64,000 nt of DNA from Oscillospiraceae bacterium (lineage in GTDB: Bacteria > Bacillota > Clostridia > UMGS1810). A model generated the notes under the pieces. The model was not told the DNA's origin. It did no database searches and saw only the letters and a list, made by a program, of their open reading frames with translations. The translations under genes were made by a program, and so were the position numbers. Shown one piece after another: positions 21,615-22,451 of this stretch; the first letter of the stretch is position 1, and the number at the start of each line of letters is the position of its first letter. The stretch lies in NCBI GenBank assembly GCA_015068975.1, contig SVJM01000001.1, forward strand, positions 62,001 through 126,000, in the 5' to 3' direction.

Positions 21615-21712
21615 AATACAGACGATTTTTTCATCCATCAGAGATGTGACATAGGGACGTGCCGTTTTGTCATACTGTGCAAAAGAAAAGTTAACTGTAG
21701 CACAAAGCCCCT

Positions 21713-21787
21713 CGTCATCCTGAGCGCAGTCGAAGGATCTATATTAATTATATGTTTCGACTCCGTTACACTCCGCTCAACATGACG
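21713..21787. repeat. REP-like imperfect inverted repeat
   Basis: Begins CGTCATCCTGAGCGCAGTCG and ends with CCGCTCAACATGACG, so the two ends pair imperfectly over about 25 nt (also AGTCGAA with TTCGACT). The words CATCCTGAGCG...TCGAAGGATCT are familiar from repeated intergenic elements in many bacterial genomes. Only one clear copy is in this window. Confidence 0.6.
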
Positions 21788-21845
21788 TTGCAACAAGTCT
21801 GCAATACCCCTGCTTGTCCACTTTTGATAATATCCAAACTTTTTG

Positions 21846-21874
21846 TTGCTAAAAAAATATTTTTGGTGTATAAT
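21846..21874 (+). promoter_or_regulatory. Predicted promoter of the structured RNA
   Basis: TTGCTA and TATAAT with a 17-nt spacer. The predicted first transcribed base falls at about 21881, exactly where the 5' arm of the closing stem begins. Confidence 0.65.
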
Positions 21875-21880
21875 ATTTTT

Positions 21881-22033
21881 GCGCACAACAATTTAATAAT
21901 GAATACATTTAGGCAACTTGTTACATTGTAAAAAATGTACGTGCTCTTACAACAGAGTTGTCTTATTTGTATTCTTTTGTTGTGCGCAAAAAGAGTCGTA
22001 CGTTTTTAGCGTCGGTTCTTCCGGCGCTTTTTT
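21881..22033 (+). ncRNA. Candidate structured RNA or leader attenuator
   Basis: The predicted transcript starts GCGCACAACA, which pairs perfectly with TGTTGTGCGC at 21978-21987. Nested inside are GAATACA (21901-21907) with TGTATTC (21968-21974), then a helix of about 11 bp (21912-21922 with 21951-21962, one bulge) and an apical ACATT/AATGT hairpin (21923-21938). The result is a long rod with internal loops. An intrinsic terminator follows at 22008-22033. The rod with a closed 5'-3' stem recalls 6S RNA, but homology is not shown. Because a ribosome site and a 93-residue gene follow the terminator within 20 nt, it could instead be an attenuating leader. Confidence 0.6.
22008..22033 (+). terminator. 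Intrinsic terminator of the structured RNA
   Basis: 8-bp GC-rich stem (22008-22015 with 22021-22028, one G-T pair), loop TTCTT, then six T. Confidence 0.85.
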
Positions 22034-22052
22034 AATTAAAAGGAGGATTGTT

Positions 22053-22334
22053 ATGTTTCCCTTAGATGAAGACATCATAAGAGATATATATTCAAAGCAA
22101 CAAAAAACTATAGAAAGAGATAGATGGTTTGATGAGGAATACTCGAAACGCTACAGCTATCTTAATGAGTGTATTGAAAAACTCAGAGCAGAGCTCACTC
22201 CAAAACAGGATATATTGATGCAAAGACTTCTTGGCGCGATGCAGATGTACAATGAATATAATGAGCTTAAGAGATTCGGAAAAGATATGAAATGCATGTA
22301 CGATTTCGGTATGTGTCTTAAAAACAAATATTAA
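22053..22334 (+). CDS. Small helical protein, 93 residues, unknown
   Basis: Not recognised. The protein is charged and predicted almost wholly alpha-helical, with no signal peptide, membrane segment or cysteine cluster (two Cys near the C-terminus). AAAAGGAGG lies 6-7 nt before the ATG at 22053, giving good support for translation; the longer in-frame upstream reading would run through the RNA stem and terminator and is rejected. Its mRNA would have to read through the terminator ending at 22033, so expression may be conditional. It sits in the insertion that separates frr from uppS. Confidence 0.65.
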   Translation: MFPLDEDIIRDIYSKQQKTIERDRWFDEEYSKRYSYLNECIEKLRAELTPKQDILMQRLLGAMQMYNEYNELKRFGKDMKCMYDFGMCLKNKY

Positions 22335-22404: not shown

Positions 22405-22451
22405 CCTCAAAACTTACCAAAAGGGACGGTCCCTTTTGGTAAGTTTTGAGG
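22405..22451. terminator. Perfect 23-bp inverted repeat with GGGACGGTCCC core
   Basis: Arms 22405-22427 and 22429-22451 pair perfectly around a single central base. It shares the GGGAC-S-GTCCC core with elements at 14526, 48016 and 51948, though the arm sequence differs and no T-run follows directly. Confidence 0.75.

Follow-up and report, generated by a model that had tools for sequence, protein, structure and literature searches.

The question raised by this locus is whether a compact structured RNA that is closely followed by a small gene is an independent small RNA, like 6S RNA, or the regulatory leader of that gene. The locus lies in a stretch of 64,000 nucleotides from an Oscillospiraceae bacterium, which we refer to as a whole as the window. 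A sequence-only reading had proposed a rod-shaped RNA whose closing stem starts at the predicted transcription start, about position 21881; it compared the RNA with 6S RNA and considered an attenuating leader to be equally plausible.

All features of the locus are on the forward (+) strand. The sigma-A-type promoter (21846–21874) consists of a -35 box TTGCTA (21846–21851), a 17-nt spacer and a -10 box TATAAT (21869–21874), and matches the consensus at 10 of 12 positions. A scan of the region found 5 promoter-like sites where 5.8 are expected. Since the region has no more promoter-like sites than its shuffled versions, the promoter is convincing only via its homologues. Among 79 surveyed copies of the RNA, which are the best-scoring ones and hence a biased sample, a homologous promoter scoring at least 9/12 was found in 74 (21.1 ± 4.7 in shuffles), and in 70 of these 74 the spacing between the end of the -10 box and the closing stem is fixed, taking one of two adjacent values. 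The promoter is thus at the expected place and predicts a start at about 21881.

At that predicted start begins the closing stem P1, in which GCGCACAACAA (21881–21891) pairs with TTGTTGTGCGC (21977–21987), as the sequence-only reading had recognized. It is followed by an asymmetric 5' bulge, UUUAAUAAU (21892–21900), where the segment ACAACAAUUUAAUAAUGAAUAC is letter-identical to a copy in another genus (genome G015, contig C98). In the predicted fold, P2 joins 21901–21907 to 21968–21974, P3 joins 21911–21918 to 21956–21963 (this helix is also indicated by covariation in the family), and a P4-like apical hairpin UACAUU-GUAAAA-AAUGUA occupies 21922–21939. The intrinsic terminator T1 (22008–22033; stem 22008–22028, U-tract 22029–22033) ends exactly where it had been placed before. 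The strong ribosome-binding site AAGGAGG (22040–22046) begins 7 nt past the U-tract and belongs to the 93-residue gene that had been noted close behind, a DUF6809-like frame running from the ATG at 22053 to 22334, which we refer to as the cargo gene. The fold of 21881–22033 has a free energy of -51.6 kcal/mol, compared to -29.3 ± 3.2 in dinucleotide shuffles, and 0 of 200 shuffles were as good (z = -6.97). The nested helices of the proposed rod therefore hold, but the RNA is not a pure rod in that a pseudoknot ties its apical loop to the linker between P1 and T1. The segment 21846–22033 is predicted to form a transcription unit of its own that yields a structured RNA of ~153 nt.

6S RNA mimics an open promoter by a large, open bubble at its centre, binds RNA polymerase and templates pRNA. 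The window RNA resembles 6S RNA (RF00013) as a rod-shaped independent RNA of similar size that starts at its closing stem. However, the predicted fold contains an internal loop of 9 against 2 nucleotides and, on one side only, an apical bulge of 12 nt, the wide two-sided bubble of the 6S type is absent from it, and a conserved apical pseudoknot stands in place of the open bubble. The covariance-model search against 6S and leader families that the sequence-only reading had called for gave no Rfam family at the gathering threshold in the window, RF00013 and RF03085 included, and RF00013 is absent from the sub-threshold hits at the locus as well. The genome has its own 6S RNA elsewhere (locus L001, G000:C65:13449-13639; 63.9 bits, over the cut-off). 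On these three grounds we reject the identification as 6S RNA, and with membership in that family refuted, a 6S paralogue is hardly credible either. The best sub-threshold hit at the locus is AaHKsRNA22 (E = 0.011, below the cut-off), and the sub-threshold hits look like chance. At 15 homologous loci, the only Rfam match over the RNA copy was SNORA68 (E = 0.3), and neither RF03085 nor any other listed antitoxin RNA was found at E ≤ 1.

Homologues of the RNA are numerous. Beyond the window's genome, a DNA search of 60 relatives yielded 3 short matches; of these, the two in G015 and G007 lie in similar rods. The first covariance model, R1, had the window as its only source sequence and matched in at least 23 of 391 genomes of the class at E ≤ 0.1. 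A second model (R2), built from 28 natural copies with base pairs only for P1 and the terminator, found 106 copies in 15 of the 16 genomes of the window's family; the window's genome has 5 of them, and other genomes of the family reach 15, some having 12–15. In the class, R2 matched in at least 96 of 391 genomes carrying 21 different family labels, and in a draw of 398 genomes from the phylum, some of them of the same class, it matched the window's genome and 0 of the 397 others; searches of more than 40 genomes used stricter filters, so that these genome counts are lower bounds. Among 30 genomes taken from named records, 5 have the RNA; MAGs designated uncultured Clostridia bacterium are among these 5, and such names suggest that the class is Clostridia. 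The copies are 153–235 nt long (median 169). Judged by these sequence comparisons, the window RNA is one copy of a multi-copy pseudoknotted RNA family that has no model in Rfam 15. About one quarter of the sampled genomes of the class carry this RNA, some in 12–15 copies, and yet Rfam 15 lacks a model for it. The motif is not described in our literature searches or in the passages of RNA-discovery papers considered; supplementary lists, such as the thousands of entries in PMC8040213, may include it.

Phage origin was rejected, as 19-base viral matches lack the closing stem (judged by eye). Exact-pattern scans of viral contigs for the RNA found nothing, and a search of plasmids gave no match. 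The RNA occurs in two records named "Bacteriophage sp.", L201 (MT835845.1, 2073–2232) and L202 (MT837627.1); MT835845 is probably bacterial DNA because it has ClpC- and YicC-like genes (by eye).

The pseudoknot was absent from the sequence-only reading. Its 5' strand in the apical loop, AAAAAUGUACG-U-GCUCUU (21931–21948, with pairing segments 21931–21941 and 21943–21948), pairs with AAAGAGU-CGUACGUUUUU (21990–22007) in the linker. The duplex has -18.4 kcal/mol in the window, where 0 of 300 shuffled linkers equal it, and its energy is likewise about -18 kcal/mol in G015 and G007, where 4 and 0 of 300 shuffled linkers, respectively, are as good. On average over the copies, each apical strand fits its own linker better than those of other copies (-16.17 versus -12.57 when permuted; 0 of 2000 permutations as good). 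The P4-like hairpin and the pseudoknot are mutually exclusive at 21934–21939 because both use these positions. At least three nucleotides of the A5 tract pair with upstream U in the P4 hairpin in 66 of 76 surveyed copies; the 5' strand of P4 resembles the linker, and A5 cannot serve P4 and the pseudoknot together. A U-A-U triple helix formed by two U5 tracts and A5 was dropped by reasoning on strand polarity.

Covariation was assessed in 91 distinct copies, with an alignment model that held the base pairs of P1 and the terminator only, P3 and the pseudoknot not being part of it. In P1, 98.3% of cells are paired and all 11 pairs have changed on both sides; in T1, 97.7% of cells are paired and 8/8 pairs have changed on either side; the two pseudoknot helices are 96.5% and 90.1% paired; and the P3 columns are 73–80% paired, also with changes on both sides. 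Taken over the 40 pairs of these four elements, 35 have both-side changes, 92.8% of cells are paired (78.5% in shuffles) and 465 cells are double changes (128 in shuffles), and 0 of 500 shuffles reach any of five covariation measures. When the partners are slid by 1–3 columns, pairing falls to 34–55% (maximum 55.4%). Compensatory changes in homologues, by which the sequence-only reading had wished to be judged, are thus present far beyond controls, and its claim of a discrete structured RNA extending from closing stem to terminator is borne out.

In the complete sets of copies from five genomes of the family, a gene starts no more than 50 nt past T1 in 36/63 copies and by 137 nt in a further 9/63, and 18/63 copies have no frame with a ribosome site within 137 nt. 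In the survey of 79 best-scoring copies, 47 have such a frame within 140 nt, with 29 of the 47 starting at +14 to +21, and 38 have a gene start within 50 nt, compared to 4 of 98 other terminators at the surveyed loci. Such constrained spacing between terminator and gene is characteristic of an attenuating leader, and the fixed placement of the gene in many copies favours that alternative of the sequence-only reading.

One competing explanation is a trans-acting small RNA, or an RNA that binds RNA polymerase or another protein and is 6S-like in use, with T1 constitutive and the gene either incidental or expressed by leaky read-through. It would account for the promoter and strong terminator of nearly all copies, for tandem copies that each have their own promoter and terminator, and for the copies without a nearby frame. 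The lack of a visible antiterminator helix also suits it: no conserved helix overlapping T1 was seen in the 91 copies, where P1, P3 and the pseudoknot leave T1 free. However, gene starts within 50 nt are far more frequent behind this RNA than behind other terminators, and the RNA and the gene duplicate as one unit. We consider a trans-acting role rather unlikely.

The most likely explanation, to which we assign a probability of roughly one half, is a terminator-gated leader in which exchange between P4 and the pseudoknot tunes read-through and which is also released as a small RNA. Most transcription would stop at T1 and yield a stable RNA with its 5' end locked in P1, and a minor fraction would continue past T1 and transcribe the gene; with a ribosome site that begins a few nucleotides later, this gene has no space for its own promoter. 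During its folding, the RNA would tune this read-through: strand AAAAAUGCAnGCUC of the apical loop would first pair with the upstream strand of the P4 hairpin and could then switch to its matching strand in the linker, GAGCnnUGCAUUUUU, which lies immediately before T1, so that the pseudoknot forms. The competition between strands is one between P4 and the pseudoknot and does not involve T1. We infer transcription, read-through, the strand exchange and its sign. Counted against a leader are the lack of a conserved helix over T1 that could serve as antiterminator, the sizeable gene-less minority (18/63), the 10/63 copies with an inverted motif in place of a gene, and the DUF6809 matches that lack the RNA (4/11). 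Pairing of the apical strand with the gene start region is weak, comes mainly from three orthologues and is equalled by 23 of 2000 permutations; a general mechanism in which this strand pairs with the ribosome site downstream was rejected.

A precedent for this gene order is known. According to the portions of PMC12373285 considered here, the RCd22-abiF locus of C. difficile comprises a sigma-A promoter, a noncoding RNA, a Rho-independent terminator and a promoterless gene, and RACE and RNA-seq detect a dominant short RNA plus read-through into the gene. This combination of gene order, dominant short RNA and read-through leads us to favour the terminator-gated leader over a trans-acting RNA, an RNA-protein pair and a dispersed element without regulatory role. 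The window shares with RCd22-abiF (RF03085) the order of promoter, RNA, terminator and gene without its own promoter, as predicted from the sequence. Unlike abiF, where the RNA consists of two short motifs, the window RNA is a single pseudoknotted rod, and its cargo is not Abi_2 and varies between genomes. Transcription-attenuation riboswitches likewise end in an intrinsic terminator just before a ribosome site and occur in several, sometimes tandem, copies per genome; the present family differs in having no conserved helix over the terminator, no metabolic theme in its cargo and no recognizable ligand-like conserved unpaired core. The raiA motif (ModT RNA) is, in the parts of PMC11706538 considered, another conserved structured RNA of Bacillota, and the window RNA differs from it in being multi-copy before variable cargo and in having no Rfam match at gathering. 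The layout is of a known kind; by the Rfam and literature searches described above, the RNA family itself is new.

The same precedent could suggest an RNA-protein pair, in which excess short RNA restrains the cargo protein and T1 sets the ratio of the two. Besides the gene order of RCd22-abiF (in the portions of PMC12373285 considered), the multiplication of one cargo family per genome along with the RNA is consistent with such a pair. In type III toxin-antitoxin systems (ToxI and kin), a pseudoknotted RNA is followed by a terminator and then the gene. The window has this layout, but its RNA is not a short tandem repeat, and Pfam does not place its cargo among the ToxN-type nucleases.

The identity of the cargo bears on this possibility. 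The window protein scores 26.4 bits against PF20648 (DUF6809; cut-off 27) and is predicted to form three helices; a structure search with a DUF6809-like model gave no match at E ≤ 0.001. In the window's genome, 4/4 DUF6809 matches are directly behind the RNA, and the fifth RNA precedes a frame judged similar by eye, so that a DUF6809-like frame follows 5/5 copies. In the family, 7 of the 11 DUF6809 matches follow the RNA (4/4 in this genome and 3/3 in G003), and the other 4 lack it. The cargo family that has multiplied depends on the genome: in G004 and G002 it is the Cys-rich LTPGN family, in G007 the PVRSI family, which has a hydrophobic start, and in G010 the KPRTID family. The cargo elsewhere matches BspA-LRR (LRR_5), RCC1, copper-amine-oxidase-N (Cu_amine_oxidN1), GDSL, CHAP or nothing in Pfam. 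The lack of relationship between the cargo families, among which are secreted BspA-LRR, RCC1, GDSL and CHAP proteins, speaks against an RNA-protein pair, as does the missing RF03085 match at gathering. Moreover, the interiors of L117, L120 and L125, from three genomes, are 0.99–1.00 alike and precede different proteins (L117 and L120 versus L125), and one cargo family of G004 is found behind several interior types. The RNA interior thus does not correspond to the cargo. This speaks against specific recognition between the two, and an RNA-protein pair appears improbable.

The RNA and the gene duplicate jointly as units of 0.4–0.7 kb, in which similarity starts near the -35 box and ends near the stop codon, with little beyond in most pairs. 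In four pairs of copies within one locus, the 3' parts are at least 90% alike and the interiors 0.61–0.76 (unrelated baseline 0.49); a recently duplicated pair in G004 has kept its interior at 0.99, against a reading of the interior as hypervariable. Similar interiors occur across different bacterial families. In the window, the cassette splits frr from uppS, which are adjacent and without a cassette in several relatives of the family; synteny of the RNA with frr-uppS was rejected, the RNA being absent in family relatives whose frr and uppS adjoin. These units with unrelated flanks, the cassette between frr and uppS, the similar interiors in different families and the 5–15 copies in many genomes could also come from a dispersed, possibly mobile RNA element whose structure serves spread and not regulation. 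However, no terminal repeat or recombinase was noticed beside the cassettes read, the orientation to the gene is consistent, and promoter, terminator and pseudoknot are conserved. We regard such an element as quite improbable.

Tentatively, the RNA and its gene might represent a portable RNA-gated cassette, that is, a conserved promoter-pseudoknot-terminator module by which many Clostridia-like genomes place unrelated small or secreted cargo under a common signal by means of a three-strand switch at A5, with RNA and cargo reshuffled between lineages. Equally tentatively, modules of different interior type in one genome and the near-invariant A5 tract might be understood in this way. If the RNA is a leader, the genes behind it in gut bacteria would constitute a regulon of unexplored small and surface repeat proteins, and it would also define a pseudoknot strand-exchange switch adjoining a terminator; if it acts in trans, it would represent a multi-copy family of small RNAs that is new. 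In both cases, the question can be tested directly with the covariation model and the cargo lists.

Several minor observations concern the surroundings of the RNA. A simple pattern flags 10/63 copies as gene-less; behind their terminator lies a motif that looks like the linker and P1 strand in inverted form and can pair with them. The inverted motif GCTCC..ATTGTCGCCAAACA, often accompanied by a second hairpin, is seen at the gene-less loci L109, L113, L122, L130, L140, L142, L144, L146 and L155-L158. One copy (L206, G000:C25:38112-38264) lies directly behind spoIIAA-spoIIAB-sigF, the operon of a sporulation sigma factor (by eye). Downstream of the cargo gene, at 22406–22450 of the window, the palindrome CCAAAAGGGACGGTCCCTTTTGG with longer arms is found; it occurs at 13 exact places in the genome and at 16 in total if up to 2 mismatches are allowed, one copy being just behind the second DUF6809 cassette (C36:51069), and it is either REP-like or a terminator. 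An imperfect inverted repeat, CGTCATCCTGAGCGCAGTCGAAGGATC...CTCCGCTCAACATGACG, is found upstream of the promoter at 21705–21790 and resembles a dispersed repeat.
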